From Ammoniphilus oxalaticus (GTDB lineage: Bacteria > Bacillota > Bacilli > Aneurinibacillales > RAOX-1): a DNA stretch of 64,000 nucleotides. The DNA lies in the NCBI RefSeq assembly GCF_003609605.1, contig NZ_MCHY01000008.1, forward strand, positions 806,001-870,000, in the 5' to 3' direction. Within the stretch, counting starts at the first letter, position 1; each line of letters begins with the position of its first letter. Shown here piece after piece: positions 1,502 through 59,861 of this stretch. Under the pieces are notes generated by a model that was not told where the DNA came from, did not search any database, and worked only from the letters and a program-made list of their open reading frames with translations. The position numbers and the translations under genes were made by a program.

Positions 1502-4500
1502 GACCGTTAAAAATGACGATGACCGCGTTTGGCCCTTATCGCGACCACCAAAAGATTGACTTTTCTGAAATTAAAGATTACCAGTTGTTTGTCATCTCGG
1601 GGAAAACAGGGGCGGGCAAAACGACCATTTTTGACGCGCTTTGTTTTGCGATCTATGGGGAAGCGAATGGGGAAGATCGACGTGAAACGCGACTTTTGCG
1701 CAGCGATTTTGCCGATGATGAGACGTATACGTCGGTGGAGTTGGATTTCGAATTGCGGGGTCGCCAGTATCGGGTGATTCGGGAATTGCCGCACGTGAAA
1801 GAAGGTCGCAAAACAGCGAGCGGGGGAAAAGCGGAACTGTATGAAATTACGACAGGAACACCGATCCCCTTTTTAGATAAATTTTATAAGCGGGAAGTCG
1901 ATCGCAGCTTAGTCGAACTGGTCGGTTTGGACAAAGATCAATTTTCGCAAATTGTGATGTTGCCGCAAGGGGAATTTCGCAAGTTATTGACATCGGAAAC
2001 CGATAACAAAGAGCAAATCTTGCGCCGCATTTTCAAAACGGATTCGTTCAAAATGATTACAGAAGCGCTTGATCGCCGTCGAAGAGCGGCAATGGACAAA
2101 GCCCGTGAAAAGCGGGGACAGCTGGACCTTTACATTGAACAAATTTCGACGACACTTGAGCGCCGCGACGACTCCGAGTTGTTTGCGACGTTAGCCGAAG
2201 AACATTACAGTCCGCAACAGGTGATCCATGGCTTAGCCGAGGAGATTCAATTTTACTTAGGACGCGGGCAAGCGATCAAACAACAACTGGACCAGGCGGA
2301 TGCCACCTATAAACAGAAAGAAGCGGCGCTTCATGCCGCCAAAGCGCTCAATGAACGTTTCGCATTGTTGGAAAGTTATCAGAGTCAATCGGTCCAATTG
2401 GAACAGCGACAAGCGGAGATGAAGGAGCAAGAAGGGCGTTTGCGACAAGCGGAAAAAGCGTCCTTTATCGAACCGTATGAGCAGCAATTTTTGACGAGTC
2501 AAGAACAGGCAAGGCAAAGGAAAGGCCAGTTCGAGCAAAAAACGAACGCGTTGCAAGCGGCCCAGACAGCGATTGAGCAAGCGGAACAATTTTTTCAACA
2601 AGAGGCGGAAAAAGAGACGGCGCGCGAACAAGCAAAGAGGCAGGTTCAACAGCTGGCGGAGTGGGCCCCTGCTGTGGCCAAATTGGCAGAAAGAAAGCAA
2701 CATCTGCTGAAACAGCGCCACCAATTACAACACATCGAACAACAGCTAGAGCAACGCGAGGCGCAAATGAAAACGTTGCAAACGAATGGCGAGTCGTTAA
2801 AACAGATGATCCGACAAGCGGAAGAACAGCTCGAACAACTGCCTGTTTGGCAAAAGAAACAAATGGACGCCGCCGCGCGGGAAAAACTGCTGAAACAGCA
2901 TCTGGACAATCTGCGGGAGGCTGAACGGTTACGGCAACAGGAAGCGACAGAGGCGAGCAACTTCAAGCAATTACATACGGCTTACGAACAGCTTGAAGCC
3001 GATTGGTTAGCGGGGCAAGCGAGTATGCTGGCCCAGTCATTGCAGGCGGGCGATCCCTGCCCCGTTTGCGGCAGTCATGACCATCCTGAAAAAGCGGGAG
3101 GCGGCGAAGGTGAAGGCCAACTGCCAACGAAGGAACAATTGGATGAGCTTAGGGAGAAGCGGGATCGTCAATCCGCAGCCCAACAACGAGTGGGGGCGCT
3201 GCTGGCTGCATTGCGCATGACGATGCAGCAAGAGCGGGAGCAGATCGGTCAGGTGGAGGATATTGCGTCCGCTTATGAACAAGCAAAACGAGCCCATGCC
3301 GAAGCGACCGCGGCGCTCCAACAATTGGAACAGACACACCGCCAGCTGACTCACAACCGAAGCCGATTTACTGAGCTAGAAGCCCAGCTTACTGAACAAC
3401 AAACGGAGCAGGAAGCGGAGCGAAAAAAGCATCAAGCGCTTCAGGTGGAATATTCAACAGAGGTTGCTGTGCTCAAAAATGATTTACAAGCGATTCCAGA
3501 GCAAGTTCGAGAATTGGAACAGTTGCAAGCGAAGCTACGTGAGGCAAAGCAAGCGTCTGATGCCTTGGAAGCAAGCTGGAAACAAGCCCAAGAAACGCGC
3601 CAGCAAGCGCAAATCAAGTTAACCAGGGCAGAGAGCGAACAACAAAGCGCGAGCAACGCCTTGCAAGAGGCTGAGCAACAACAACGGAACCATGCTGAAG
3701 TGTATGAGCGCGAATGGAAATTAGCCGAATTTGAAACAGAACAGCACTATCAGGCGGCAAAATTAGACCGTGATCGTCGTGAACAGCTACGGCAGGAAAT
3801 CGAAACGTACAAGACAAAGCTGCATACGGCGCGGACCCAATTAACGGAGATCCAAAGCGAGCTAGCGGGCAAGCAACGGCAGGATCTCGAACAGTTAAGC
3901 GCTGAAGTCAATCAGTGGGAAATTCAGCGCAACCAATATGTAGAAGATTTGCACCGCGCGCAGCGGGCCCGCGAAGACGCTGTGAAATTGAAGGATCAGA
4001 TTTCACGCTTGTACGCCGCGTCGGGTGAGGCTGCCCAGGAAGCGCAGATGATTGTTCATCTGCACGATTTGGTGCGCGGCGATAACGAATACAGACTTTC
4101 GTTTGAACGCTACTTACAAATTGCCTACTTAGAATCAATCATTGAAGCGGCAAACGTTCGCTTACAGAAAATGACGAATGGGCAGTTCCAACTCGATCGT
4201 CGGGCAGATCGGGAAGCGCGCGGACGACAGAGCGGACTCGGGTTAGATGTGTTGGACGCCTACACTGGTCAATATCGTGATGTGAAATCACTGTCCGGAG
4301 GGGAAAAGTTCAAAGCTTCCTTGTGTCTAGCCTTAGGCTTATCCGATGTGATCCAAGCCCATGACGGCGGAATCTCGATCGAGACGATGTTTATTGATGA
4401 GGGATTCGGTTCTTTAGATGAAGAATCGTTGCAGGAAGCGGTTGACATTTTGGTGGAATTGCAACAATCGGGACGCACAATAGGGGTCATTTCTCACGTG

Positions 4501-4587
4501 CAAGAATTAAAAGATGCTATCCCTGCGGTGTTAGAAGTGCAGAAAACGAGGGAAGGCTACAGTCAAGCGCAATTTATAATCCGATAA
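1498..4587 (+). CDS. sbcC: Exonuclease subunit SbcC (Rad50-type ATPase)
   Basis: SMC-like ATPase partner of SbcD. Of 1029 residues, the N-terminal lobe has Walker A GKTGAGKT (about 35-42), followed by a Gln/Glu-rich coiled coil, a zinc-hook CPVC (about 521-524) at the turn, and a returning coil. The C-terminal lobe has LSGGEK (about 932) and Walker B ending IDEGFGSLD (about 964). The start at 1498 is chosen over an in-frame ATG at 1474 because AGGAGG lies just upstream, the product begins MRPLKMTMTAFGPY as in relatives, and it gives the usual ATGA overlap with sbcD. Confidence 0.97.
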   Translation: MRPLKMTMTAFGPYRDHQKIDFSEIKDYQLFVISGKTGAGKTTIFDALCFAIYGEANGEDRRETRLLRSDFADDETYTSVELDFELRGRQYRVIRELPHVKEGRKTASGGKAELYEITTGTPIPFLDKFYKREVDRSLVELVGLDKDQFSQIVMLPQGEFRKLLTSETDNKEQILRRIFKTDSFKMITEALDRRRRAAMDKAREKRGQLDLYIEQISTTLERRDDSELFATLAEEHYSPQQVIHGLAEEIQFYLGRGQAIKQQLDQADATYKQKEAALHAAKALNERFALLESYQSQSVQLEQRQAEMKEQEGRLRQAEKASFIEPYEQQFLTSQEQARQRKGQFEQKTNALQAAQTAIEQAEQFFQQEAEKETAREQAKRQVQQLAEWAPAVAKLAERKQHLLKQRHQLQHIEQQLEQREAQMKTLQTNGESLKQMIRQAEEQLEQLPVWQKKQMDAAAREKLLKQHLDNLREAERLRQQEATEASNFKQLHTAYEQLEADWLAGQASMLAQSLQAGDPCPVCGSHDHPEKAGGGEGEGQLPTKEQLDELREKRDRQSAAQQRVGALLAALRMTMQQEREQIGQVEDIASAYEQAKRAHAEATAALQQLEQTHRQLTHNRSRFTELEAQLTEQQTEQEAERKKHQALQVEYSTEVAVLKNDLQAIPEQVRELEQLQAKLREAKQASDALEASWKQAQETRQQAQIKLTRAESEQQSASNALQEAEQQQRNHAEVYEREWKLAEFETEQHYQAAKLDRDRREQLRQEIETYKTKLHTARTQLTEIQSELAGKQRQDLEQLSAEVNQWEIQRNQYVEDLHRAQRAREDAVKLKDQISRLYAASGEAAQEAQMIVHLHDLVRGDNEYRLSFERYLQIAYLESIIEAANVRLQKMTNGQFQLDRRADREARGRQSGLGLDVLDAYTGQYRDVKSLSGGEKFKASLCLALGLSDVIQAHDGGISIETMFIDEGFGSLDEESLQEAVDILVELQQSGRTIGVISHVQELKDAIPAVLEVQKTREGYSQAQFIIR

Positions 4588-4711
4588 AGATATCGCGGCG
4601 GAGGGGCCCCTGGCGTTTTTCAGCGAAGGGATTTGAGCAGGATTGAAAAACGGTAAGGGACGGCCTATTTGGTTGTAGCTTAATTATTATCCGAATTGGA
4701 GGCTGAAAAAC

Positions 4712-5287
4712 TTGTCAGAACGACGTTTTGATCCCGCAAAATTTGCGAAATTAGACAATCCAGAGCGGCGAAAAGCGTTGCCGCCAAAAAAGTTGCTAGG
4801 TATGCTGGCTATCCAGGAAAATGATGACATCCTTGATTTAGGCGCGGGTACCGGCTACTTTTCGTTACCCGCGGCGACAATGACCAAAGGAACGATCTAT
4901 GCCCTTGATGTGGAACCGCAAATGTTAGAGATGTTGAAGGAACGAAGCGCTGAGCAGGGGGTCGTCAACATTCAGTTTATAGAAGGAAAGATCGAGGAGC
5001 TGCCGCTTGCGGATGCGTTGGTGGACCATGTAATCGCCTCGTATGTACTGCATGAAATTGACCCATTGTCAGCCGGATTAACCGAGATTCATCGCGCATT
5101 AAAAAAGGGCGGCAAATGCCTCTGTTTAGAATGGGAGAAAAAAGAGACGGAACAAGGCCCCCCGCTGCATCACCGTATTCATTCCAGTGATCTGCAACAA
5201 GCGATGGAAGCGGCAGGCTTTACGATTATCGAAAAGTCATTTCCAACGGATCAACACTACATTTTGATCGCTCAAAAGAACGGCTGA
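4712..5287 (+). CDS. Class I SAM-dependent methyltransferase
   Basis: A 191-residue methyltransferase with the SAM-binding motif DLGAGTGYF (about 42-50), the acidic residue of motif II (LDVEPQML) and a post-motif region SYVLHEIDPL. It resembles the UbiE/Methyltransf_11 group, but the methyl acceptor cannot be named. Translation starts at TTG 4712, preceded by TTGGAGG. The spacer from sbcC (124 bp) shows no strong terminator, so co-transcription is possible. Confidence 0.9.
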   Translation: MSERRFDPAKFAKLDNPERRKALPPKKLLGMLAIQENDDILDLGAGTGYFSLPAATMTKGTIYALDVEPQMLEMLKERSAEQGVVNIQFIEGKIEELPLADALVDHVIASYVLHEIDPLSAGLTEIHRALKKGGKCLCLEWEKKETEQGPPLHHRIHSSDLQQAMEAAGFTIIEKSFPTDQHYILIAQKNG

Positions 5288-5314
5288 CGGACGGGGACGG
5301 AGGGGAGTGGACGT

Positions 5315-5626
5315 GTAAAGGCCTCAACTCCCGTTACAGCGCTGGAATCATCGCGATTGCCCGCTGTAGTGGCCTGAAGTCCCTTTACAATCGCCGCCAG
5401 CCTGCGAATTCGTTGGCGGTTCCCGTTTGTAAAGGCCTCAACTCCCGTTACAGCGCTGGAATCAACGGTGTTGCCCGCTGTAGTGGTCCGAAGTCCCTTT
5501 ACAATCGCCGCCAGCCCGAATTCGTTGGCGATTCCCGTTTGTAAGGGTCTCAACTCCCGTTACAGCGCTGGAATCATCGTCATTGTCCGCTGTAGTGGTC
5601 CGAAGTCCCTTTACAATCGCCGCCAA
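5315..5626. repeat. Three tandem ~113-bp units with 86-bp hairpin-forming core
   Basis: An 86-bp core occurs at 5315-5400, 5429-5514 and 5541-5626 with few differences. The copies are separated by 28- and 26-bp linkers that are also related (GAATTCGTTGGCG). The periods are 114 and 112 bp, so reading frames are not kept and this is not protein coding. Each core starts GTAAAGG...TTACAGCG and ends with the inverted counterpart GCTGTA...CCTTTAC, so each can fold into a long imperfect stem-loop. A degenerate linker follows the last copy up to about 5660. It is probably a dispersed intergenic repeat. Confidence 0.85.
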
Positions 5627-5718
5627 TCGCAAATTCAGTCGAACTTGCATTGGATTCCCCTGTAGCCAAGCAAAGATGCGCTATAATGGGGAAAAATGGC
5701 GAGGGAGAGGGATCGGGG

Positions 5719-6495
5719 TTGTTACCGTATGAGATTGTATTTTTCGATATTGATGGAACGCTTTTAAATGAACAACAGCAAATTCCAGAGGACACCAAAG
5801 CGGCCATTCGACAGTTGCAAAAATCAAGTGTGGAGGTCGTTTTGGCTACGGGTCGAGCGCCTTACCATTTGCTGGATATCGCGGAGGAACTTGGGATTGA
5901 TTCACACATCAGCTTTAACGGGACCTATGCGATTCATCACGGTCGAGTGATCCATTCACAACCACTGCCCATCGCAGCGGTCGAATCCGTGCGCGCCTTT
6001 GCTCGGGAACATAATCATCGACTGGTTTACCTTGGGGACAAGCAATATGTGGCGAGTCATCAGCAAGATGAAAAGATTGAGCAATCTTTTGTGGAGTTGG
6101 AACTTGCTGTTCCTGCTTACGACGCTCAATTTTCCCAGACGAACGATGTATACCAGATCGTAATCTATGGCGATCAGCAGTTGCAGCAAACGTATCAACA
6201 TCAATTTTCGGAATTGAATTTTGTACGCTGGCATCCACAGGCGTTTGATGTGATTCGGGCTGACACATCCAAAGCGGGCGGGATTGAAACGCTACTCGCT
6301 CACCTAAATATCTCCCGCGAAAAAGCGGTCGCGTTTGGAGATGGCCTCAATGATCGAGAAATGCTCGCTTATGTGGGAATGGGGATTGCAATGGGGAACG
6401 CTCATGAGGAGTTGAAATCGTTAGCTGATTTTACGACAAAGCATGTGAACGACGGGGGAATTACGCACGGTCTGCAAAAAATAGGAATGATTTAA
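5719..6495 (+). CDS. Cof-type HAD family hydrolase
   Basis: Cytosolic haloacid-dehalogenase phosphatase of the Cof/YwpJ type (258 residues). It has the nucleophile motif FDIDGTLL near residue 9, a Ser/Thr motif in VLATGRAPYH, a C2 cap region and the metal-binding motif GDGLNDREML. Such enzymes dephosphorylate sugar phosphates or cofactors such as FMN or PLP; the substrate is unknown. TTG 5719 is preferred because GAGGGAGAGGG lies just upstream and the product begins directly at the first strand of the fold. An upstream in-frame ATG at 5686 overlaps a TATAAT box (5682-5687). Confidence 0.9.
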   Translation: MLPYEIVFFDIDGTLLNEQQQIPEDTKAAIRQLQKSSVEVVLATGRAPYHLLDIAEELGIDSHISFNGTYAIHHGRVIHSQPLPIAAVESVRAFAREHNHRLVYLGDKQYVASHQQDEKIEQSFVELELAVPAYDAQFSQTNDVYQIVIYGDQQLQQTYQHQFSELNFVRWHPQAFDVIRADTSKAGGIETLLAHLNISREKAVAFGDGLNDREMLAYVGMGIAMGNAHEELKSLADFTTKHVNDGGITHGLQKIGMI

Positions 6496-6544
6496 GCGGA
6501 AAGAGTCGCATGAACAACAGGATTTGGCTGACGAATCAATAATC

Positions 6545-6581
6545 AAAATCACCCACGCCGAAAAGGTAGGGTGATTTTTTT
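6545..6581 (+). terminator. Rho-independent terminator after HAD gene
   Basis: AATCACCC pairs with GGGTGATT across a 14-nt loop and is followed by a run of T. Confidence 0.85.
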
Positions 6582-6665
6582 AGTACGCGAACTATTTCTA
6601 AGCTTCGATAGAAAGACGCCCCCTTTGCCATGAAACACAATAATTTAATCTCTAGAAGCGCTACC

Positions 6666-6695
6666 TTTACATACCCTACAAGGGTATAGTACAAT
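6666..6695 (+). promoter_or_regulatory. csoR-copA promoter with CsoR operator
   Basis: A perfect 7-3-7 inverted repeat ATACCCT-ACA-AGGGTAT (6671-6687) matches the known CsoR operator type. It sits between a -35 box TTTACA (6666-6671) and a -10 box TACAAT (6690-6695), spacer 18. Bound repressor would block RNA polymerase, and Cu(I) would release it. The placement directly upstream of csoR and copA supports autoregulation of the operon. Confidence 0.88.
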
Positions 6696-6772
6696 CTAGG
6701 TAAGCTACTTTTAGCGCTCATTGGATGAAATCGATCTATTTCCATAAAATAAGTGAAAAGGTAGGCTGGTCC

Positions 6773-7102
6773 ATGGCTGATAAAGAACAAGATAAACAGG
6801 GTAACGATGAAGAACGAACGGCGAAGAGGAAAAGTGGTTCGTCTGATAAAACAAAAAAGAACTTGGCAACGCGACTAAATCGGATCGAAGGTCAAATTAG
6901 AGGGATCAAAGGGATGATTGAAAAAGATGTCTACTGCGATGATGTGCTTAATCAAATTGCCGCGGCTCAATCTGCTTTGAATTCGGTTGGAAAAATCTTG
7001 CTGGAATCTCATTTGAGAAGCTGTGTGACAGAACGCATTCAAAAGGGAGACAGTGAGGTCATCGATGAATTGTTAAAAACGGTCCATAAATTGTTGAAAT
7101 AG
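6773..7102 (+). CDS. csoR: Copper-sensing repressor CsoR
   Basis: Four-helix DNA-binding copper sensor (109 residues). The Cu(I) ligands Cys55, His80 and Cys84 keep the exact C-x24-H-x3-C spacing of B. subtilis CsoR. The body (RLNRIEGQIRGIKGMIEKD, AAAQSALNSVG) is typical. The N-terminus is a long charged, probably disordered extension. ATG 6773 is preferred over an in-frame ATG at 6725, because AAAGGTAGG lies 8 bp upstream. It lies 39 bp ahead of copA and behind the CsoR operator, so it most likely represses its own operon. Confidence 0.93.
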   Translation: MADKEQDKQGNDEERTAKRKSGSSDKTKKNLATRLNRIEGQIRGIKGMIEKDVYCDDVLNQIAAAQSALNSVGKILLESHLRSCVTERIQKGDSEVIDELLKTVHKLLK

Positions 7103-7141
7103 TTTTGAAGGCCCACAAACCTTAGTTAAGGAGGGAGCGAG

Positions 7142-9583
7142 ATGGCCGTTGAAATGAAAGTGAGAAATGAAACGGAAGCAGCGTCAATAGAGAGCGTTGC
7201 GCTCGGCATTTCAGGAATGACCTGCGCTGCTTGTTCGAATCGCGTTGAAAAAGTCTTGTCGAGAACGGAAGGGATTCAGAAAGTAGGTGTCAATCTGGCC
7301 ACCGAAAAAGCTGTGATCGAATATGACAAGAAACGGATCTCAATGGATCAAATTCTCGAAAAAATCGAACAAACAGGCTATCAGGTGAAGACCGAAAAAA
7401 TAACGCTGCAGGTGAACGGGATGACTTGCGCCGCTTGCGTCAATCGCGTAGAAAAAGTGTTGAGCCGAGTGGACGGCGTCACGAAAGCAGTGGTCAATTT
7501 ATCGACGGAAACGGCAAGCGTTGAATTTATTCCAGCGCAAACGGAGCTCAGCGCGTTGATTGCTGTGATTAAACGAGCGGGCTTTGACGCGAAGCTAAAA
7601 ACGGAGGCGGCTGCGGCTGAAGAGCAGCATCAGAAGGAAGAACAGTTGAAGCAACTACGGCTAAAATTTATTGTAGGAGCGATCATTTCCGCTTTTTTCT
7701 TGATTCAAATGGTCGCGGACATTTCAATGGAATACGGACGCGCCTTCAATTTTCATATGAATCCGTGGCTGCAATTGGCGTTAGCGACCCCCGTGCAGTT
7801 TTATGTCGGAGGGAGTTATTATCGCGATGCGTATAACTCCGTTCGCGGGGGGAGCGCCAACATGGCGGTACTTGTCGTGCTAGGAACTTCCGCGGCTTAT
7901 CTTTACAGTATCGTCGTAACCTTGCTTGGGACGGGACAGATGTTGTATTTTGAAGCGGCAGTGGTCGTGCTCACCTTGATTATCCTTGGAAAAATGTTGG
8001 AAACGCGGGCGAAAGGTCAAACATCGGCAGCGATCAAAACGTTGATGGGGCTGCAAGCGAAAACGGCCCGTGTGATTCGGGATGGCGTGGAAATGGATAT
8101 TCCAATTGAAGACGCGCTAGCGGGGGACCTCATTTTTGTGCGGGCGGGCGAGAGGATTCCTGTCGATGGAACAGTCATTGAAGGAAATAGTTCGGTTGAT
8201 GAATCGATGTTAACCGGCGAAAGTATGCCTGTCGTAAAAAATAGCGGTGATGCGGTGATCGGGGCGACGGTGAATAAACACGGTTCTTTAACAATCAAAG
8301 CGGAAAAGGTAGGAAAAGAAACGGCCCTCGCCCAGATTATTAAGTTGGTTGAAGACGCGCAAGGGTCGAAAGCGCCCATTCAACGTCTCGCGGATACGAT
8401 CTCAGGGATTTTTGTGCCGATCGTTGTCGGGATTGCATTGCTCACGTTTGCGGTTACGTATTTCGTTGTTGGCTTCACAGCCGCTTTGGTTAGTACGGTG
8501 GCCGTGTTGGTCATCGCTTGTCCTTGCGCCTTAGGGTTGGCGACGCCGACCGCCGTGATGGTCGGTACAGGGAAGGGCGCGGAAAACGGCATTTTGATCA
8601 AAGGCGCTGAACATTTGGAGCGCGCTCATCGCATTACAACGGTACTGTTAGATAAAACGGGTACGATTACAAAAGGGGAACCCGAAGTGACCGACCTAAT
8701 TGCGTTCGGCGGTTTGTCGGACGAAAAGCTTCTTCAACTCGCGGCTTCAGCTGAAAAAGGATCCGAACATCATTTAGGTAAAGCGATTGTCAACCTAGCT
8801 GAAGAGAAACAATTGCCGCTTCAAAACGTCACAAACTTCCAGGCAATACCCGGGTACGGTATTCAAGTCGAAATTGATAACGAGCTTGTTTTAATCGGGA
8901 ATAAGCGGCTAATGGCGCAACATAACGTCGCGCTTTTAGATGAAACGTTGTCCCAATTGAAGGCGCTTGAAGCGCAAGCGAAAACAGCTGTACTGATTGC
9001 GATCAACAACAATGTGTCGGGCATGATTGCGGTCGCTGATACGGTAAAGGAGACGTCTGCGGAAGCGATTAGCCAATTGAAAAAGCTTGGCTTAGAAGTG
9101 TTGATGATCACAGGGGACAATCGTTTGACAGCGGAAGCGATTGCCGAGCAAGTCGGGATTGAGCGTGTGCTTGCGGAAGTGTTACCTGAGGACAAGTCTG
9201 CGGAAGTGGAACGGCTCAAGCAAGCAGGAAAAATTGTGGCGATGGTTGGCGATGGGATCAATGATGCGCCCGCGTTGGCTGCCGCTGATGTTGGAATCGC
9301 GATCGGAACAGGGACAGATGTGGCGATGGAAGCGGCAGATGTAACCTTGATGCGCGGGGATCTCATGGGCATCGTCGATACGGTGCGTTTGTCCAAAGCG
9401 ACGATCCGAAAAATTCGCCAAAATCTATTTTGGGCGTTTGCGTACAATGTCGTGCTCATTCCCGTTGCGGCGTTTGGACTGCTTAATCCCATTCTTGCTG
9501 GCGCCGCGATGTCATTTAGTTCCGTCTCTGTCGTCGGTAACACGTTATTTTTGCGAAAGTGGAAACCGATTCGATCGGCTTGA
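7142..9583 (+). CDS. copA: Cu(I)-exporting P1B-type ATPase CopA
   Basis: Membrane copper exporter, 813 residues. Two N-terminal heavy-metal domains carry GMTCAAC motifs (C28/C31 and C96/C99). Then come the membrane helices, the actuator motif TGES, the transmembrane CPC metal site (460-462), the phosphorylation motif DKTGT (Asp504), an HP dipeptide region, and the hinge [10 protein letters not shown] (near 704). The order and length are those of bacterial CopA. AAGGAGGG precedes the ATG. No copZ chaperone gene is adjacent, unlike the B. subtilis copZA operon. Confidence 0.97.
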
Positions 9584-48867: not shown

Positions 48868-51141
48868 ATGGCTCAAATGATACCTGATTCTATTCCTAGG
48901 CAGGCAACATCAGGGGAGAAACTTGTTTTTAAAACGTTGAAATCATCATTACCTGATGATTTCATTGTCTATTATGAACCCGAAGTGAATGGAAGAAGAC
49001 CTGATTTTCTAATCATAGCTCCTCACTTAGGATTACTCGTTCTTGAAGTGAAAGACTATACGAAAAATACGCTTGTAAAAATAAACAAAGATGAATGGTT
49101 TATCCAGCATGGGGAGGCTCAATTAACAACGGTTAAAAGTCCGTTGAAACAAGCGCGGGATAACATGTTTCATATAGCGAGTTATCTTCAAAAAGAGAAG
49201 TCTTTGCTTACGTGGGACGGAGAATATAAAGGAAGGCTCAAGTTTCCGTACGGGTATGGAACGGTTTTTACGCGTATTACACAGGCAGAATGTGTTGAAC
49301 ATCAAATCTATCATATAAATGAACCACATTTTACACTCACGCGAGATGAACTCGATTTGGACCACGATACTTTTTCGCGTGAACACTTCATTGAAAAATT
49401 GTACGGCATGTTTCCTTTTAAACATGTGAAAAGACAATATCTAACAGTAGAAGATATTGAGACAATTCGATTTTACCTTTTCCCCGAGGTCCGCATTAGC
49501 GCAAAATGGAATGAACCGCGCAAATATCGAGAGGACTGGCTGCTATCGCTAACCGATTTAAAGACGATGGATGTTCACCAAGAAAATTTGGCAAAACAGA
49601 TCGGGGAAGAGCATCGTCTGATTCGAGGCGTTGCCGGAAGTGGAAAAACGCTCATTCTAGCAAGTCGTGTAAAAACATTGCAAATGAACAATCCAGATTG
49701 GAAGATTCTTGTCCTTTGTTACAACATCTCGTTGGCGACGATGATCAGACAAATGATTGAGGAAAAATTAAGAGAGCCAGCAGACATGATCGATTTCATT
49801 TCAACGAAAAATAGCGACAAGACCGACCATAATGTCGAGGTCTTTCATTATCACGGGTTTATTTCGAAAAAGAGGATAAAAGAGGACGGCGAAATGCCTG
49901 AAGGTTCCTATCCTTTGTACGACGCCATTTTGATCGACGAAGGCCAAGACTTTGAACCCGAGTGGCTCAACATGATTAGCAAGTGTTTAAATCCTGAAAC
50001 AAAATCGTTATTAATCGTTGAAGATCGAGCCCAAAATATTTATAAAAGAAAGTGGAATTTGCGAAAGCTGACAGGTCTTGATTTCAGGGGAAGGTCCCGT
50101 TACTTAAGCATTAATTATCGAAATACGGCGGAGATCCTTCAGTTTGCTTGGCGGTTTTATGAGATGCATACGTATGATGGCGACAAAACAGATCAGAGCA
50201 AGGCGGAAGTGATCCCACCCCGACAAACAGAACGAACAGGACCAGAACCGATCGTATATAAAGCGTCGAATTTTGAAGAGGAAGTGGATTTCGTCGCGAG
50301 GAGTATACATAAATTACATCAGGAATATGACATCCCTTTTTCAGAAATGATTATCCTTTATCGGATCAGAAGAGATCGTAATCATTCCTATGTCGACATT
50401 CTTAAGCGCGTTTTAAAACAGCATCAACTCCCTTATTTTTGGCTGTCTGAAAATAATGAAACGAAAAGACAATTCATCAAAAAGGAAGAGAGCATTAAAA
50501 TTTCAACGATTGACAGTTCCAAAGGGTTGGATTTCCAGGCTGTATTCGTTGTTAACCTTGATAATATGCCTTTTGTATTGGAAGAGGATGAGGAAAGAGA
50601 AGCTGCCTTGCTCTATATTGCGATGACAAGAGCATTAGAATGGCTGTTTTTAAGTTACAGCGGGGTGTCCAAGTATACGAACTATTTGGAATCTGTTTCT
50701 CATGTGAATCAACCGAATGTAAAAGAACAACTAGAGCAAGAACTAGCGTCCACTGTCTGGACCGAAGAAACGGCCGCGACGACTGAACTAGAAGCAACTG
50801 AAATCATTGAAACGGAAGAGAGTGAGCAAACCATGGCGAAAACGTCGTTTGATGTACATGCTTTTTCAGAGGAGAATCATAACCCACTCGTCTTTGAAAC
50901 CCTAAGAGGTTGGCGTAAAAAGAGGGCGGCGGCAAACAAGGTCCCAGCCTATACAATTATTGAAAACAAGTCGCTCATGATCCTTGCGACATTCATCCCG
51001 CATACCCAGGAAGAATTCATGTCCTTGCCGTTCTTTAAAGAGAAAAGATGGGAGATGTATGGTGATGAACTATTGGAAATTCTGAAAACTATGAAAAAAA
51101 GTACGACATCTTTGAATATTTTCCGCGATACGTTTTCTTAA
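48868..51141 (+). CDS. NERD domain-SF1 helicase-HRDC fusion
   Basis: 757 residues. The N-terminal NERD nuclease-like domain (about 12-130) has GRRPDFLIIAP and LVLEVKDY, the D-x-n-E-x-K arrangement. A UvrD/Rep-like superfamily 1 helicase follows, with Walker A GVAGSGKT (about 254), Walker B LIDEGQDF (about 355), INYRNTAEIL, and the late motifs TIDSSKGLDF and LLYIAMTRA. The last 90 residues (VFETLRGWRKKRAAANKVPAY, EEFMSLPF) form an HRDC domain. It is probably DNA repair or phage defence, given the neighbouring restriction genes. Confidence 0.92.
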   Translation: MAQMIPDSIPRQATSGEKLVFKTLKSSLPDDFIVYYEPEVNGRRPDFLIIAPHLGLLVLEVKDYTKNTLVKINKDEWFIQHGEAQLTTVKSPLKQARDNMFHIASYLQKEKSLLTWDGEYKGRLKFPYGYGTVFTRITQAECVEHQIYHINEPHFTLTRDELDLDHDTFSREHFIEKLYGMFPFKHVKRQYLTVEDIETIRFYLFPEVRISAKWNEPRKYREDWLLSLTDLKTMDVHQENLAKQIGEEHRLIRGVAGSGKTLILASRVKTLQMNNPDWKILVLCYNISLATMIRQMIEEKLREPADMIDFISTKNSDKTDHNVEVFHYHGFISKKRIKEDGEMPEGSYPLYDAILIDEGQDFEPEWLNMISKCLNPETKSLLIVEDRAQNIYKRKWNLRKLTGLDFRGRSRYLSINYRNTAEILQFAWRFYEMHTYDGDKTDQSKAEVIPPRQTERTGPEPIVYKASNFEEEVDFVARSIHKLHQEYDIPFSEMIILYRIRRDRNHSYVDILKRVLKQHQLPYFWLSENNETKRQFIKKEESIKISTIDSSKGLDFQAVFVVNLDNMPFVLEEDEEREAALLYIAMTRALEWLFLSYSGVSKYTNYLESVSHVNQPNVKEQLEQELASTVWTEETAATTELEATEIIETEESEQTMAKTSFDVHAFSEENHNPLVFETLRGWRKKRAAANKVPAYTIIENKSLMILATFIPHTQEEFMSLPFFKEKRWEMYGDELLEILKTMKKSTTSLNIFRDTFS

Positions 51142-51643: not shown

Positions 51644-52525
51644 ATGAACCCTTTGAATGCAGAGGAACTTAAACAAAAAATCGCAGACCTTAAAATATGG
51701 AAAAAGAGGGACGAGCGAGCCCCGCATAAACCCCTGACTATTTTGTACGCCCTTGGGCGCCTGCAAAATGAAAATACACGTGAATTTCATTACGAGGAAG
51801 CAAGGGAGAAGCTGACGAATCTATTAATGGAATTTGGACCGCCTCGTAAATCCTATCATCCGGAACAACCATTCGTTCGCTTGCAAGGCGATGGGATTTG
51901 GAAGTTAAACCAACGTGTTGATAGGCCTCAAATAAAAAACCGTTATCTCATCGAAAATGATGTGATCGGTGGGTTTAAAGAGTCGGTTTATGACTTGTTT
52001 AAGCAAGATGCTACGCTAGTAAGAGAGGTTGCTGAATTCCTATTAAATGAACATTTTCCAGACACGATCCATGAAGATATATTGCTCGAAGTCGGATTAA
52101 ACTTAGGTACATACAGACGTAGAACCAGAGATCCGAGATTTCGCGAAAAAATTCTACGCGCTTATGAATTTAGCTGCGCTGTCTGTGGGTTTAATGTTCG
52201 TTTAGGTCACAACCTCGTTGCGATTGAAGCGGCGCATATTAAATGGCACCAATCGGGCGGGCCAGACGAAGAAGAGAATGGAATCGCCCTATGTTCGTTG
52301 CACCATAAACTATTTGATCGCGGCGTGTTTACCTTTAACAAATCAAAAAAATTGCTCGTATCCGAAAAAGCCCATGGAACGAACGGATTCGAAGAATGGC
52401 TATTACGCTATCATGGTCAACCCATCCGCGAACCCATCTCGCCACACTATCAGCCAAAACAAAGTTACCTCGATTGGCATGTGCATGAAGTATTTAAAGG
52501 AGAGGCTAGGTATGTGAGTGGGTGA
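51644..52525 (+). CDS. HNH endonuclease, phosphorothioate-DNA-binding type IV restriction enzyme-like
   Basis: 293 residues. The N-terminal part (about 15-150; RDERAPHKPLTILYALGRLQ, FGPPRKSYHPEQPFVRLQGDGIW) matches the sulfur-binding domain type found in restriction enzymes that recognise phosphorothioate-modified DNA (ScoMcrA/SprMcrA class). The C-terminal HNH nuclease has CAVC (178-181), EAAHIKWH, ENGIALCSLHHKLFDRGVF. It should cut foreign DNA that carries the modification. No dnd genes are in the window, which fits a host that lacks the modification. Confidence 0.88.
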   Translation: MNPLNAEELKQKIADLKIWKKRDERAPHKPLTILYALGRLQNENTREFHYEEAREKLTNLLMEFGPPRKSYHPEQPFVRLQGDGIWKLNQRVDRPQIKNRYLIENDVIGGFKESVYDLFKQDATLVREVAEFLLNEHFPDTIHEDILLEVGLNLGTYRRRTRDPRFREKILRAYEFSCAVCGFNVRLGHNLVAIEAAHIKWHQSGGPDEEENGIALCSLHHKLFDRGVFTFNKSKKLLVSEKAHGTNGFEEWLLRYHGQPIREPISPHYQPKQSYLDWHVHEVFKGEARYVSG

Positions 52526-52888: not shown

Positions 52889-54193
52889 ATGACTAGTAAA
52901 ATAAGAAGTTTTTTAAATAGAATTGCACCTAAATTGAATAAAGAAGAATTAGCTAGAATAATCTCTGAGAAAAAGATGGGCTGGAAGCCCTCTAAACGCA
53001 TAGATTATTTAAAAAGGGAGGAATTGGTAGATGACTTTTTAACCTTATCCACTATTATAGATGAGGATGAATTAGAGGAATTTCTGGAATTAGCATTGAC
53101 CAAGAGAACAATTGGTTATCCAGCTTATACTTTTCGCTTAACATCGATTAGGTCTCTAAGGGAAAATCAAATAGAGGAAAAACATAATTACACATTCCTA
53201 AATTCTAATCAGATAACGATAAGTTCCATTCAAAACAATAAGGATAGTTGTAGCTTTAAAATGTTCATAAAAGAACACAATGTGGCTAGAATGCAGGATA
53301 TTTTAAATTCAGACAGTTTGCAAGCGAGACATTCTATAGAAATACTTGTTGATAAAAAACAAGAAATATTAACAATGATTGTTGGCAAGGACACTACACA
53401 GGAAACGGCTAAACGCTTTTTGCAACAAGTATTGAGGTGGCCGATTTCAACTTTTGATATCACTGAAAATTATGCACAAAGCTATGAAGTTGGTAAGACT
53501 CATTTTAGAACAGCATTAATAATTGATTTTGTATACAACAGGCTGAAAAGAATAGGATATACAGCTAACTTTAAGGAGATAAAATTTTTAACAGGTAGTG
53601 AGTCGTCTAGAAGTACGGGGATAAGAAACGTTACTTTAAATGGGAATGATATTCTGTCTTCTCAACTAGCGTGTGAATATGTTACGGTAGGAAGTGCCGT
53701 ATTATCTTTTAAGTTAGACATAATATATAATGATATTAAATTTGCATCTTCCTTTTATTTTAAAGGGGATAATTATTCTCAGTTAAAAATTGTATTAATA
53801 GATGTTCCAGAGGAGTATCAAAGAACATTTATGTATACAATGCAAAATGAATACATTGATATGTGTAAAAGTGGTATTAGTAACGTTCAGGAAACCATAA
53901 CCAGACTTAATATTATTAAAGGAAAGTATTTAGCACCCGACAAATTTGTATTTGAATCGATTCAAAACGTAATTCACGAAAATAATCAGTATTTACTAGA
54001 GATTTTAGCAAAAGCTAGTGATGAGGGCATTCGTGAGCTAGTCGGCAAAACGGCCTATAATAATAAGATACTACTAGACAATACGGGATTTGGTGATGAG
54101 GACGTTAGCCTAAAGAAATTATCAGAACAATTAGAACTAGTGTTTGATACCTTGGGAGAACTTGAAGGTGAAGATAATATATTAAAAAAATAG
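52889..54193 (+). CDS. Unknown protein A of AT-rich cassette
   Basis: 434 residues; no family recognised. The N-terminal 75 residues are helical (LNKEELARIISEKKMGWKPS, REELVDDFLTLSTIIDEDEL) and may bind DNA or another protein. The middle has a beta-alpha pattern SIEILVDKKQEILTMIVGKD, then TAKRFLQQVLRWPIS; later comes TLNGNDILSSQLACEYVTVG and LSFKLDIIYNDIKF. The same two patterns occur in the next gene, so both may share a domain. The C-terminus is acidic. The gene is far more AT-rich than the chromosome around it. AAGGGCTGATGTA precedes the ATG. Confidence 0.72.
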   Translation: MTSKIRSFLNRIAPKLNKEELARIISEKKMGWKPSKRIDYLKREELVDDFLTLSTIIDEDELEEFLELALTKRTIGYPAYTFRLTSIRSLRENQIEEKHNYTFLNSNQITISSIQNNKDSCSFKMFIKEHNVARMQDILNSDSLQARHSIEILVDKKQEILTMIVGKDTTQETAKRFLQQVLRWPISTFDITENYAQSYEVGKTHFRTALIIDFVYNRLKRIGYTANFKEIKFLTGSESSRSTGIRNVTLNGNDILSSQLACEYVTVGSAVLSFKLDIIYNDIKFASSFYFKGDNYSQLKIVLIDVPEEYQRTFMYTMQNEYIDMCKSGISNVQETITRLNIIKGKYLAPDKFVFESIQNVIHENNQYLLEILAKASDEGIRELVGKTAYNNKILLDNTGFGDEDVSLKKLSEQLELVFDTLGELEGEDNILKK

Positions 54194-54229
54194 TATTCAA
54201 TTTAAATGTAATTAAGGGAGGGGGGGACA

Positions 54230-54850
54230 ATGAATAATGCTGTTGTATTTAAAATTGAAGTAGGTAAAACAGAAGTGTTGGATTATGTTCAGAGCCCTCC
54301 CTCTTTTTTTGAAAGTTTAACAGAAAAAAAGATTGCTTTAAATGTTGTTGAGATAACATTAAAGTGGATAGATTCGGTAAAGTTCAAAGATAAAATCATA
54401 AAAAGAGAACCTAAGGTTGTTAGAGCTGTGCTATTTAAAAAATACAATAGGCTCTTGCTGCTAAGTGAATCTGAAAGAGAAGTGCAGTACTTTATTTCAA
54501 GGGTTCAAAAAGAATATAATTTTATTTTAAAGGAAATGTCTTTATATAGTCATTTTATGAATAATTATATAAAGAATTCTAAGGATAAATGGAAGGTTAT
54601 AGCAATTAATATGAGGAGTAAGACTGGTGATGAAATCACTATTAATGTACGAGGTTTAAAGAAAAATACTGAAGGTGATATACTTAAAGGTTTTTCTGGA
54701 ATAGAGGATAGTATTTTGAGTATTACGTGTAAGATAGGGAATGACTATTATTTTACTGTAGATAAGAGATCATCTGTGTCAACGCCAGATAATATTACTG
54801 AAAACGAAGCTCTAGAAATGTATGAGGAGTTATTTAAGTTGTATGCGTAA
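54230..54850 (+). CDS. Unknown protein B of AT-rich cassette
   Basis: 206 residues, soluble, not recognised. VVRAVLFKKYNRLLLLSESE with REVQYFISRVQKEYNFI parallels the middle of protein A. EITINVRGLKKNTEGDILKG with DSILSITCKIGNDYYFTVDK parallels its later part. It looks like a shortened paralogue without the N-terminal helical region. GGGAGGGGGGG precedes the ATG. It overlaps the membrane protein gene by 8 bp, so they are translationally coupled. Confidence 0.72.
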   Translation: MNNAVVFKIEVGKTEVLDYVQSPPSFFESLTEKKIALNVVEITLKWIDSVKFKDKIIKREPKVVRAVLFKKYNRLLLLSESEREVQYFISRVQKEYNFILKEMSLYSHFMNNYIKNSKDKWKVIAINMRSKTGDEITINVRGLKKNTEGDILKGFSGIEDSILSITCKIGNDYYFTVDKRSSVSTPDNITENEALEMYEELFKLYA

Positions 54851-55931
54851 AATAGTAAGATGGTTTTTCCTAGTTCTAGCTACAATATCGCCGTTTTTTA
54901 TATTTATTTTTACGGATACATCGTTGCCAAACAGTAAATCTAATTTAATCGATATTAGGTTTGGAGCGGCTAGTTGGATGGTAACTGGAGTAGTCGGATT
55001 CTTGGGTTTTATAGTACTATACCTGACTATTATATTTGAAAATCGAATATTTAACAATATAAGGGGCATAGAAGAGTACTATTATCCTTATGCTTTAGAC
55101 TACTCGGATATCCAGAGGAACCTACAAAACTATGTAGCCAAGAGTAAAAAGAAAGACCTGATTTTTTTATATTACTCCTACTTACTTTCCGTGTGGTCAC
55201 TAAATATCATGTGGTGTACCTTGCTCAAGCACTATTCCCAGACGCCGCTCATTGATATCAAATTAATTTTAAAAGGGACTTTTAGTGTTTACGAATTAAG
55301 CGGGATTCTTATGTATGGGTTGGGTGTCAGCTTTTGGTTAATTACTTTACTTTTTGGAATAGTATTATGTTTAGTTATTAATCAAGTTAATATTTTGGGA
55401 AAGTCAAAATTACCTGACACAACCGATTTGACAAATGTTGGATACTTGTATAAATCTAATGCCGATACATCTGAGATAATCTTTAAATGTAGTCCACAAT
55501 TGAATATTTATAGGTTTGAGGATAAGTTTGAGGTATATTTGGAATCGAAATTATCATTTACTTATGTTACTTACCTATTTAAATTTTATAGGCATGGCGA
55601 AGATTTTAAATTCAATATATACTATAAAATAGAAGGCGAAAATAATAATAAATATTTAATTCTGCAAAATAAAATAAAGGAAATTAATTTTGAAGTAGAC
55701 AATAAAAACGAAATTATTGAATACATTATTCATGAAGATTTGACGTGTGAATTGGAGGTATTCACAAATTGTGGTGAAACTGTGGGGAGATACCTTTGCA
55801 TCATGACAAATGAGAATAAACATCATTATAATTTTAAAATATCAAAAAAGGTACTTTATGATAAGATGAATTTAGAAAAAACAAAAATTCCTCAGCTTAA
55901 TAAAGGCTCAACTGTTGAGGGTAGTTATTGA
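54843..55931 (+). CDS. Unknown membrane protein C of AT-rich cassette
   Basis: 362 residues with four hydrophobic helices (about 5-24, 41-65, 110-130 and 150-185). A roughly 165-residue, beta-rich, probably cytoplasmic domain follows (LNIYRFEDKFEVYLESKLSF, FKFNIYYKIEGENNNKYLI). Family not recognised. ATG 54843 is preferred (8-bp overlap, TGAGGAG upstream); an in-frame ATG at 54822 is possible. Soluble proteins followed by a membrane protein is a layout seen in abortive-infection systems, but the function is unknown. Confidence 0.72.
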   Translation: MRKIVRWFFLVLATISPFFIFIFTDTSLPNSKSNLIDIRFGAASWMVTGVVGFLGFIVLYLTIIFENRIFNNIRGIEEYYYPYALDYSDIQRNLQNYVAKSKKKDLIFLYYSYLLSVWSLNIMWCTLLKHYSQTPLIDIKLILKGTFSVYELSGILMYGLGVSFWLITLLFGIVLCLVINQVNILGKSKLPDTTDLTNVGYLYKSNADTSEIIFKCSPQLNIYRFEDKFEVYLESKLSFTYVTYLFKFYRHGEDFKFNIYYKIEGENNNKYLILQNKIKEINFEVDNKNEIIEYIIHEDLTCELEVFTNCGETVGRYLCIMTNENKHHYNFKISKKVLYDKMNLEKTKIPQLNKGSTVEGSY

Positions 55932-55962
55932 TTGGAAGTGTGGGTAAGTGTAGCTAGCGGTT

Positions 55963-56152
55963 ATGAATTTGGGTGAAATGTTTAGAGAAGAGGGTATCAG
56001 GAAAGGGATGGAACGTAGCATAGATGTAAGGGAAATTGGAAGTGGTTCGTAATGCCATAAGAGAAGGCCTGGAAGCCAAGGTAATCGCAAAATTAACTGG
56101 ATTTTTTTAAAAAAAAATGGAAAAGATAGCTGATGAAATTGAAATGCTGTAA
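55963..56152 (+). pseudogene. Remnant of Rpn-family nuclease/transposase, C-terminal end
   Basis: ATG 55963 opens MFREEGIRKGMERSIDV after five codons, then stops. In another frame EVVRNAIREGLEAKVIAKLT and, past a stop, KKMEKIADEIEML follow. This is the characteristic C-terminal tail of Rpn/YhgA-like PD-(D/E)XK proteins (REGLE...IAKLTGL). A frameshift and a stop make it non-functional, and the nuclease domain is absent. Confidence 0.7.
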
Positions 56153-56305
56153 AGCGCCTCACTTTGGCTATCAGTGTCTGTGCGGGTTAGTCGCCATAAT
56201 TAGCGCAAGACCATGCGGAAGCTGTTGCAATGGTCTGCGCTTTTGTTCTGTAAAAATATTACTGGCGATGTAAGACTTGCTAATTTTTACCATGACTATT
56301 GGAAA

Positions 56306-57997
56306 TCAGCCCAACAATTCACGTATTTTTTCCGTGAGTATTGCTTTTCTTGCTTCATAAAACGTACCGAAATCTTCTATTTCAAGCGAGAGATCTTGCG
56401 GAATCATAGCATGTTTATAAAAATCCGTTTTTTGTTCATCGTTCATGTCATTGTAATAATCAACGAGTCGCATATCGCTTTTACTGCCGTTACTTCTACC
56501 CTCAAGCAGATGTAAATTAGGCAAGCGATTACGCAATCCGCGCCAATTTCGCCAATCTTCAACAGAAACGGTTACGGGTTTGCTTTCATTGAATCTGTTA
56601 TCTGGATGAAGATGGTCCTGTTCGTATTTAAAGTTCCTATTTGTCCAGTCTAGATTCAAATAATATAAAACCTCGCCGGCGACTCTGCCTCCTTTTTCGG
56701 AGTTGAGTACATCCTCAATTTTACCATCTGTTACTCGCAAATCATTCATCTGGTCCAACATTTCAATGGTTATATCATAGTCATAGCTATTGATGTTACT
56801 CTTCATTTGTTGCAACTTACCTGTAGTCCCGGACTGGAAATAAGTAAAGAATATCGCCCTAAGTAAGTATGCGCGAACCCCTTTAATGTTTGTTTCGTAT
56901 TCAGGATTATAATAGATGTAGTAAATAATTGGTAATAATACGTTCCAGCTCCCTGAAAAACGACTTACATCAATTTTCATTTCCTTAAGTAAACTTTCTA
57001 AATTTATCAGCGCTTCCTTAAATCCGTTCCAATCATTTTTTAAATCCTCTGCGATTTTTTTGTTAATGTTAGATTTAACGACATCACCATACATCATCAG
57101 AGCTGCGCGGATAATGAAGTCTGTGCCAAAATCTTTATACGAGTCAACAAGAATCTTCCCAAACTCCGTTTTTGCGCTAGGCCAGTATGCTTCAAGAATT
57201 GACATCGTTATTTCGGACTTTCGCAGTGGTTTTCCACCACTATTAAATCTTACAAACATTTCAAGAGCATCATCTTGTTTCATATCAAGAATTTCCGTAA
57301 ATCTAACCAATTTCTCAACAAAAACCTTATCATACAACTTTTGCAAAATGTTTCTCGCATATTCCTTGCTGTCAGCTGGTACATTTACAATGGCTTCTTC
57401 AATTGCCTCTTCTCTCGTTATTTCATCATGAAATACTGGATCGAGGATGTTTTTTATCTCAAATTGTGTAGGACTCAACCTGCCAATTTTTTCGCTGAAT
57501 TTAATATCAAACTTTTTACTGTTATATTCCTCCGCATCGACGGATATCTTATTTTTGTTTAATTCTATTAAAAGTTTAGTTATAATCTTATTCCCAGAAT
57601 TTCTTCTAGCGTTCTTTGGACGTATGTATGCTTCTCCGAACAATGATAAAAACAATGATGTTAGCCTTTGCTGACCATCTAATACTGCCGTATCTGTATT
57701 TTCAACATCGATAGTTATTAACTCGTAATTAACGCTGTCAGCTTGCTTTCTGCTGTTAAAGGTCACTTCAGATAAAAAGTTACAAAAATAAGTATCTCCT
57801 GTAACATTAGAATTATCGACACGCCAAAATAGAAATGTCGCAATAGGATAATCCAATAGAATAGAGTCCCACAGTTTTTCAATTTGATCCATTCCCCAAA
57901 CAAATTGCCTTTGAAATGCGGGCATTACATATTTTCCGTCTTTAATGTTCTGCAACGCCTCGTATATGGTGATGCTGTTATCTATCAATCTACTCAA
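56306..57997 (-). CDS. DUF262 nuclease-like protein (GmrSD/GmrS-type)
   Basis: 563 residues. The N-terminal DUF262 domain (VMPAFQRQFVWGMDQIEKLWDSI, DTAVLDGQQRLTSLFLSLFG) has the ParB-like DGQQR motif that binds and hydrolyses NTP in GmrS. The middle is helical. The C-terminal region has DHLHPDNRF followed by NWRGLRNRLPNLHLL, a His-Me finger pattern as in DUF1524/GmrD. It is therefore probably a single-chain modification-dependent (type IV) restriction enzyme. TTG 57997 has a GGGGG run 8 bp upstream. It converges with the unknown cassette. Confidence 0.88.
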   Translation of the reverse strand: MSRLIDNSITIYEALQNIKDGKYVMPAFQRQFVWGMDQIEKLWDSILLDYPIATFLFWRVDNSNVTGDTYFCNFLSEVTFNSRKQADSVNYELITIDVENTDTAVLDGQQRLTSLFLSLFGEAYIRPKNARRNSGNKIITKLLIELNKNKISVDAEEYNSKKFDIKFSEKIGRLSPTQFEIKNILDPVFHDEITREEAIEEAIVNVPADSKEYARNILQKLYDKVFVEKLVRFTEILDMKQDDALEMFVRFNSGGKPLRKSEITMSILEAYWPSAKTEFGKILVDSYKDFGTDFIIRAALMMYGDVVKSNINKKIAEDLKNDWNGFKEALINLESLLKEMKIDVSRFSGSWNVLLPIIYYIYYNPEYETNIKGVRAYLLRAIFFTYFQSGTTGKLQQMKSNINSYDYDITIEMLDQMNDLRVTDGKIEDVLNSEKGGRVAGEVLYYLNLDWTNRNFKYEQDHLHPDNRFNESKPVTVSVEDWRNWRGLRNRLPNLHLLEGRSNGSKSDMRLVDYYNDMNDEQKTDFYKHAMIPQDLSLEIEDFGTFYEARKAILTEKIRELLG

Positions 57998-58517: not shown

Positions 58518-59010
58518 TTAATCTCCTTTCATGGTTTGTAATAATCGATATGAATCGTCAACATTCATATCGAGGAAATGAGAACGAAACGTAATACGAT
58601 CAATAAGAGCGGACACTATGATGTCATTTTCGAATAGCTCTGTCCACCTTGAAAATTAAAAATTGGTTGTTACAATAATGCTTGCTCGTTTGTTCGGATC
58701 GTTCTGAAATAACCTGGAACAGCAATTCAGATTGATGCCGATTAAATGTAAGATAAGATAATTCATCTAGGATTAACAAGTCTAGCTTGGACAGACTTTT
58801 TTCAAGTTTAGAAAGACGGTTGAACTGTAATGCTTCCGATAGTTCTAAGGCTAAATTGGCGGCTGTATAGAATTTAGCGGCAAAGCCAGCTTGACAAGCC
58901 TTCATTCCGAGACCGATCGAAAGATGAGTTTTCCCCGCAACCGGGTTTCCAATCATGACGATGTTTTGCCGATTAGTAATGAAATCGCAGGAAGATAACT
59001 CCCATACCGT
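58518..59010 (-). pseudogene. istB: IS21-family istB, degenerate
   Basis: Minus-strand frame with LSSCDFITNRQNIVMIGNP, Walker A GNPVAGKTHL, TAANLALELSEA and Walker B KLDLLILDELSYL. After ERSEQTSK a frameshift leads to SIIVTTNF, a TAA, then FSRWTELFENDIIVSALIDR and the C-terminal end at 58518. IstB is the ATPase helper of the IS21 transposase. The N-terminus and the istA that should precede it are missing. Confidence 0.85.
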
Positions 59011-59090
59011 TGCGCTAGAAACTTCTTAATTGTTGGAAACTGTTGAGTCTTAATTATCAAAAACTGTTTAATTCTACTTGACGGTTACAG

Positions 59091-59861
59091 TTGCAAACGA
59101 GAAATGCGACAAAACCAATCCATAGCGTGATCCGAACAGCGGAAGCGCTATCCAAGTTAGGCACGATTCCAGAAGTGTTAGACAATAAGCCGACCATTGA
59201 AAAAGTTTTAACAGAAGAATTCTGGGACAACGCGGATATTTTTGAACTGGATGAGGTCCGAGAAGCCTTAAGGGAACTCATTAAGTACATAGAAAGAGAA
59301 TCGCAACAACTCTACTATACAAACTTTCAAGATGAAGTGTTGGAAGTAAAAGAAAGCGGTCCGATGTTCCGCGCCAATGACCTACAAAGCTATCGGAAAA
59401 AAGTGCATCATTACCTTGTCCAACATAAAGATCAGCTGGCGATTTATAAGTTGAACCACAATAAGCCGTTAACGGCTCAAGATGTGGACATGCTGGAACA
59501 TATCCTTTGGAACGAACTCGGCACTAAAGACGATTACGAGCGGGATTTTGGGGATACGCCGATGCCGATTACGAAACTCGTCCGTCAGATTGTTGGTTTG
59601 GACCGCGAAGCCGCCAATGCCGCCTTTTCACAGTTCCTATCGGAAGAACGATTGAACCTTCAGCAAACCCGCTTTGTCAGACTGATCGTTGATTTCATCG
59701 TCAAGAACGGAACCCTCGATAAAAAAATATTACAACAAGAACCGTTCAAAACCGTCGGCAGCATCGTTGAATTGTTCAAAGATAACATCGACGACGCGAA
59801 AAACATCATCGGCATCATCGACGAGATCAATCGAAATGCGGAGGAGATTGCGGGGGCATAG
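59091..59861 (+). pseudogene. hsdR: Type I restriction enzyme HsdR, C-terminal fragment
   Basis: 256 residues matching the C-terminal (EcoEI_R_C-type) part of HsdR: RTAEALSKLGTIPEVL, SGPMFRANDLQSYRKKVHHY, ELGTKDDYERDFGDTPM, SEERLNLQQTRFVRLIVDF. The frame closes at a TGA at 59078 just upstream. The motor and nuclease domains are gone, removed at the junction with the IS21 debris. No hsdM or hsdS is present. No function expected. Confidence 0.85.

Follow-up and report, generated by a model that had tools for sequence, protein, structure and literature searches.

Three genes of the cassette and their neighbours

Three open reading frames on the forward strand of the Ammoniphilus oxalaticus window (the whole stretch of DNA analysed, 64,000 nt long) form a compact cassette, which is listed here with the genes that flank it.

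48868-51141, + strand: NERD and UvrD helicase with an HRDC domain, outside the cassette (PADLOC C3a187, E 2.8e-109; Pfam NERD, UvrD and HRDC)
51644-52525, + strand: HNH restriction enzyme of the type that binds phosphorothioated DNA, outside the cassette (NCBIfam NF045808, E 1.7e-115; Pfam HNH_2)
52889-54193, + strand: gene A, soluble protein of 434 aa, predicted to be a DNA-clamp sensor with the RdgC fold (RexA-like) (open reading frame, homologues, AlphaFold, Foldseek)
54230-54850, + strand: gene B, soluble protein of 206 aa from a new family, proposed as adaptor or relay (open reading frame)
54843-55931, + strand: gene C, about 362 aa (369 from an upstream ATG at 54822); proposed membrane effector (open reading frame, alignment)
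56306-57997, - strand: DUF262/GmrSD-type protein, outside the cassette (PADLOC HEC-05, E 2.4e-103; Pfam GmrSD_N, E 3.6e-31)

The three reading frames had originally been predicted from the sequence at 434, 206 and 369 codons with the last two overlapping, and this description was confirmed with one probable change. Counting C from the ATG at 54822 gives the 369 residues, but this start is probably 21 nt too early: in the family alignment most homologues start at Met8 of that reading, at 54843, and a start at 54843 leaves an 8-nt overlap with B that is identical in four homologous loci (L002, L007, L009 and L011, described below). A and B are separated by 36 nt, and B is preceded by a strong ribosome-binding site, GGGAGGGGGG. 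A promoter scan of the cassette gave nothing above shuffled sequences. At 30.6%, the GC content of the cassette is below the 43.3% of the window outside it and the 40-47% of nine 20-kb samples taken from the host genome, in agreement with the original prediction that the cassette is much more AT-rich than the chromosome.

None of the three proteins has a significant match in Pfam, PADLOC or NCBIfam, nor does A in PHROGs, and a search of PDB sequences with the family profiles returned nothing. Library matches to DBINO, FakA-like, RTasSLATT and Csx21 models were at chance level and confined to single members of the family. B was compared with A and with C, and no homology was found. The reading frames are not products of chance, since seven more genomes or contigs hold the same three intact frames in identical order.

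The cassette was said to sit between a phosphorothioate-type HNH enzyme and a DUF262 enzyme, and the profile matches bear this out: the NF045808 restriction enzyme lies upstream and the DUF262/GmrSD protein downstream. The helicase at 48868-51141 also has weaker GajB- and DRT-type matches and is another candidate for a defence role in the island. A broken reading-frame tail at 55940-56170, after C and before the DUF262 gene, looks by eye like the C-terminal end of a transposon nuclease of the Rpn/PD-(D/E)XK type. The edge of the island (58624-59861) bears decayed restriction and insertion-sequence remnants, namely a fragment of an IS21-type IstB ATPase on the minus strand (58624-58956) and a C-terminal part of the R subunit of a type I restriction system (59091-59861).

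Conservation of the operon

Searches with A found seven homologous loci: L002, L007 (G250), L008 (G196), L009 (G278), L011, L012 and L013. Together with the window they make eight complete A-B-C operons, always in the same order and on a single strand. Four of the seven are in other bacterial genomes, L002 in Saccharibacillus endophyticus, L007 and L008 in two genomes from one family and L009 in a genome from another family, and the remaining three (L011, L012 and L013) are viral contigs. The seven homologues of the window's A are full-length and share 28-35% identity with it. The distribution is patchy, for example 2 of 40 genomes of one family and 1 of 261 of one order. The cassette was absent from 50,697 phage records, and in 72,556 plasmid records one tblastn search gave only a distant two-gene pair (L006, see below) and a second gave none. 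Because the family is rare, its profiles are shallow, with eight members.

Several lines of evidence indicate that the three genes form one unit. In each of the eight loci B has its place between A and C. A was present in 4 of 400 genomes of the class and C in exactly those four, and independent searches with A and with C against 2.9 million viral contigs returned the identical three contigs. The survey of homologues proposed with the original prediction thus found both gene order and co-occurrence to be strict. Also, the pairwise distances of A, B and C co-vary (mirror-tree r 0.89-0.91, Mantel p < 0.001). The operon is under purifying selection: in a comparison of L007 with L011, synonymous differences have reached saturation (pS 0.77-0.86), with pN at 0.17 for A and 0.28 for both B and C; the identities of A, B and C are 70%, 53% and 56%, respectively. 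The libraries searched miss this family, and a literature search of open-licence papers gave no description of such a system.

Genomic sites of the homologues

The GC content of the cassette is 27-34% in all eight loci, against 34-55% in the surroundings, whatever the host. In L007 and L012 the cassette has a phage glycosyl-hydrolase lysin on one side and an Mrr-type restriction enzyme on the other; it is oriented like the lysin in L007 and opposite to it in L012, a difference suggestive of an inversion or of separate insertions. The L011 copy comes after the endolysin region of a prophage, and the L013 copy adjoins phage DNA-metabolism genes, not lysis genes. The L002 copy is a lone insertion of 29.5% GC in a 55% GC neighbourhood; this copy and that of L008 lie among chromosomal genes. 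In L008 the cassette begins 165 nt past rlmH, and a large serine recombinase gene lies 0.2 kb beyond C. In L009 it stands among AT-rich genes with restriction and candidate-defence matches. The best reading of these sites is that the cassette is mobile, mainly on prophages.

Some features of these sites are of interest in their own right. The enzyme beside the L007 and L012 cassettes, which joins an Mrr_cat domain to a topoisomerase zinc ribbon (L007 3714-4430, L012 7240-7989), occurs in two different phages at the same prophage end, on the side of the cassette away from the lysin, as at a shared site for defence cargo. In staphylococci rlmH is the attachment locus of SCC elements, and L008 8701-14097 is possibly a candidate SCC-like element outside the staphylococci. 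The AT-rich cluster upstream of the L009 cassette (3747-9505) has a PDC-M36A candidate-defence match and several proteins (326, 264 and 379 aa) without any Pfam match; it could hold more undescribed systems.

Predicted fold of protein A

An AlphaFold model of A, built from the eight-member alignment (pLDDT 75.7, pTM 0.58), has an RdgC-like core with helical extensions at the N- and C-termini. When the model was compared with 350,542 PDB chains using Foldseek, the top three matches were E. coli RdgC (E 5e-6 to 2e-5, probability 1.00). CENP-N and Iml3 appear just below RdgC, and IML3 is a documented RdgC-fold relative (PMC11077077). Lambda RexA is absent among the 50 PDB matches listed. Among viral models (BFVD), four of the first seven matches are annotated as RdgC-type, recombination-associated or exonuclease, the last being another name under which phage RdgC homologues are deposited; the best has an E of 6e-8. 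A is therefore predicted to have the RdgC fold. The TM-scores between A and RdgC are modest (0.33/0.45), and would fit domains that are placed differently, as reported for RexA and RdgC.

Sequence profiles are blind to the link between A and RdgC, and the fold assignment accordingly rests on structure prediction. No connection of A to RdgC or RexA rose above background, and an hhalign match between A 150-193 and RdgC 126-170, which covers a beta-beta-alpha-beta unit, was discarded when 29 of 120 block-shuffled RdgC profiles scored equally high. The RdgC family PF04381 gave no match for A, nor for any protein of the host genome or 20 relatives, and the E. coli control was found. For comparison, profiles likewise fail between RexA and RdgC. 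RexA has the RdgC fold, and that kinship was detected only by structure (PMC11077077).

Membrane topology of protein C

Four membrane helices with a positive-inside pattern make up the family-wide topology of C. TM3 of the window's protein falls under the hydropathy threshold, yet aligns with the family. The cytoplasmic loop between TM2 and TM3 carries conserved residues E73, N74, R75, P89, L92 and Y104 (369-aa numbering), of which R75 is mostly Lys in the homologues. After TM4 follow about 180 residues, partly beta in a low-confidence model. B has no membrane helix. A fold search with the poor model of C gave no significant match (best C2B, E 0.087). A likeness, seen by eye, of the end of TM2 (YENKL) to actinophage RexB proteins (YNRVKD) is not significant.

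Comparison with RexAB and other systems

The original prediction that the proteins belong to no known family holds for the sequence libraries, but the predicted RdgC fold of A and the four helices of C point to systems of the RexAB kind. The systems compared were lambda RexAB, Sbash gp30/gp31, CarolAnn gp44/gp43, Pseudomonas putida RexAB and Butters gp30/gp31. Like the cassette, they encode a soluble protein with a reported or predicted RdgC fold (predicted in the case of A) beside a four-helix inner-membrane protein, and both they and the cassette are carried by temperate phages, in some cases near lysis genes; for example, Sbash gp30/31 lie close downstream of a holin gene. The order of the helices in RexB, Sbash gp31 and CarolAnn gp43 is the same as in C. 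The RexA-like proteins of the lambda, Sbash, CarolAnn and P. putida systems are considered the triggers of their membrane partners, so that membrane integrity or potential is lost and the infection is aborted (PMC11077077, PMC12894663, PMC6426596, PMC6426606). A paper of January 2026 puts the number of RexAB-like systems described at only five: lambda, P. putida and three actinobacteriophage systems (PMC12894663).

The cassette differs from all of these in having three genes, B being without a counterpart in Rex, in the helical ends added to A, and in being found in Bacillota. C has 350-370 aa and a large cytoplasmic domain, whereas RexB has 144 aa and gp31 and gp43 have 165-178 aa. Sequence similarity between the cassette and RexAB proteins was not detected. 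Since B is the third gene in eight of eight loci, we do not file the cassette as a member of RexAB.

Other known systems share less with the cassette. RdgC itself (PF04381) has the predicted fold of the core of A, but A is longer and is encoded in an operon with a membrane protein, whereas RdgC is a nucleoid and recombination protein. Kiwa, which combines a small membrane protein, KwaA, with a soluble protein, KwaB, has a general layout like that of the cassette; it differs from the three-gene cassette, and no KwaA or KwaB model in PADLOC matched any of the eight members. Pfam, PADLOC and NCBIfam gave no cyclase match among A, B and C, such as would be expected beside the membrane effector of a CBASS or Pycsar system.

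The most revealing intermediate is the distant pair L006 (NZ_CP144225.1 11379-13092), which lies between endolysin and serine recombinase genes on a phage-plasmid of Alkalihalophilus pseudofirmus. Its A is 357 aa long and is recovered reciprocally (E 3.7e-9; hhalign 81 against a null maximum of 27). It is followed directly by a 212-aa four-helix protein, with neither B nor the C-terminal domain of C. This membrane protein is not clearly a homologue of C and was not counted as one: it ranked at the top (27.1 against a null maximum of 22.5), but with TM1-TM2 aligned to TM3-TM4. L006 resembles the cassette in having a sequence-homologous A next to a four-helix protein, and differs in its two genes and lack of B. 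It shows that A can partner another membrane protein. By its layout, which is that of RexAB, L006 seems to be a RexAB-type system of two genes in Bacillota, though it is not annotated as one.

Proposed function and alternatives

That the cassette is a defence system of some kind seems to us likely. The original prediction had proposed an undescribed anti-phage system of sensor-like soluble proteins and a membrane effector, and the strict order and co-occurrence of the genes, their sites beside restriction enzymes, at prophage cargo sites and at the rlmH hotspot, their foreign composition and the predicted DNA-binding fold of A all argue in that direction. Our reading departs from it in two points. 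RexAB provides a relative in kind, and several homologues are found in prophages or as lone insertions and not in defence islands of bacteria. The latter fit defence cargo, yet the original prediction had itself counted homologues outside defence islands against the proposal.

As to the kind of defence, we lean, by a little, towards a mobile, three-component, Rex-like abortive exclusion system of Bacillota, on the predicted RdgC fold of A and the four helices of C. A would probably dimerise into a clamp on double-stranded DNA, and its cue would be a phage protein or some effect of the infecting phage on DNA. The signal from A might then be relayed or gated by B. C, activated via the TM2-TM3 loop in the cytoplasm and the C-terminal domain, would damage or depolarise the membrane, growth would stop and the infection would abort. 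The analysis shows an intact, ordered and co-occurring operon under purifying selection, its mobility, the four helices of C and the predicted fold of A; that A binds DNA, that phage sets the system off, that B is an adaptor, that the membrane is harmed and that the host is protected are inferences.

The system could instead be anti-phage but not Rex-like: B or the beta-rich domain of C would sense a phage protein or small molecule, and A, as a regulator or inhibitor, would hold C silent. Between L007 and L011 divergence is faster in B and C than in A, as expected for parts that recognise something. The division of roles seen in lambda is not obligatory: in phage Butters gp30/gp31 the roles are reversed, the RexA-like protein being the effector and its membrane partner restraining it (PMC12894663), and in tests of RexA point mutants exclusion did not depend strictly on DNA binding (PMC11077077). 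However, no ligand site was positively identified in B or C, and L006 keeps a distant A though it has neither B nor the C-terminal domain of C; we regard this arrangement as distinctly less likely than the Rex-like one.

Two further explanations assign the cassette no role in excluding phage. A toxin-antitoxin or lysogeny-maintenance module, with C as a membrane toxin restrained by A, B or both and with persistence of the element as the benefit, would suit compact, mobile, overlapping genes on prophages and islands and a membrane-bound C with a predicted cytoplasmic control domain. It is improbable in our judgement, in view of proteins that are large for a typical pair, a predicted RdgC fold in A that is not a usual antitoxin fold, and plasmid records that yielded just the distant L006 pair. 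An ordinary phage function, for example lysis control or recombination, with an RdgC-like recombination modulator and a holin-like partner, would make the chromosomal copies prophage remnants. The cassette does stand beside the lysin in several prophages, and RdgC genes do occur in phages (430 phage records). Against this, its orientation to the lysin differs between L007 and L012, the L013 copy adjoins DNA-metabolism genes, its GC content is far below that of the phage around it, the L002 and L008 copies sit among chromosomal genes, and the 50,697 phage records searched lack it, so that such a function is very unlikely.

A more specific extension of the Rex-like reading is offered tentatively, as a possibility that we hold well below even. 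The cassette would be a separate class of Bacillota immunity on prophages and islands, in which a DNA ring of the RdgC fold senses what state the DNA is in during infection, acts by way of B, an obligatory adaptor from a new family, and opens a large, regulated membrane effector from another new family (C). RexAB, the L006 pair and the cassette might then have elaborated a single core in parallel, a DNA clamp of the RdgC fold coupled to interchangeable four-helix membrane effectors.

Exclusion by RexAB has a history of some 70 years, and its trigger is still not understood. If the Rex-like reading is true, a Bacillota version with three genes, in which the middle protein is separate and the effector enlarged, would widen the RexAB class, and a defence family missed by the libraries searched would be added. 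Because their partner proteins already differ, members of the cassette and Rex families would allow a direct test of the RdgC-fold DNA clamp as the shared trigger.
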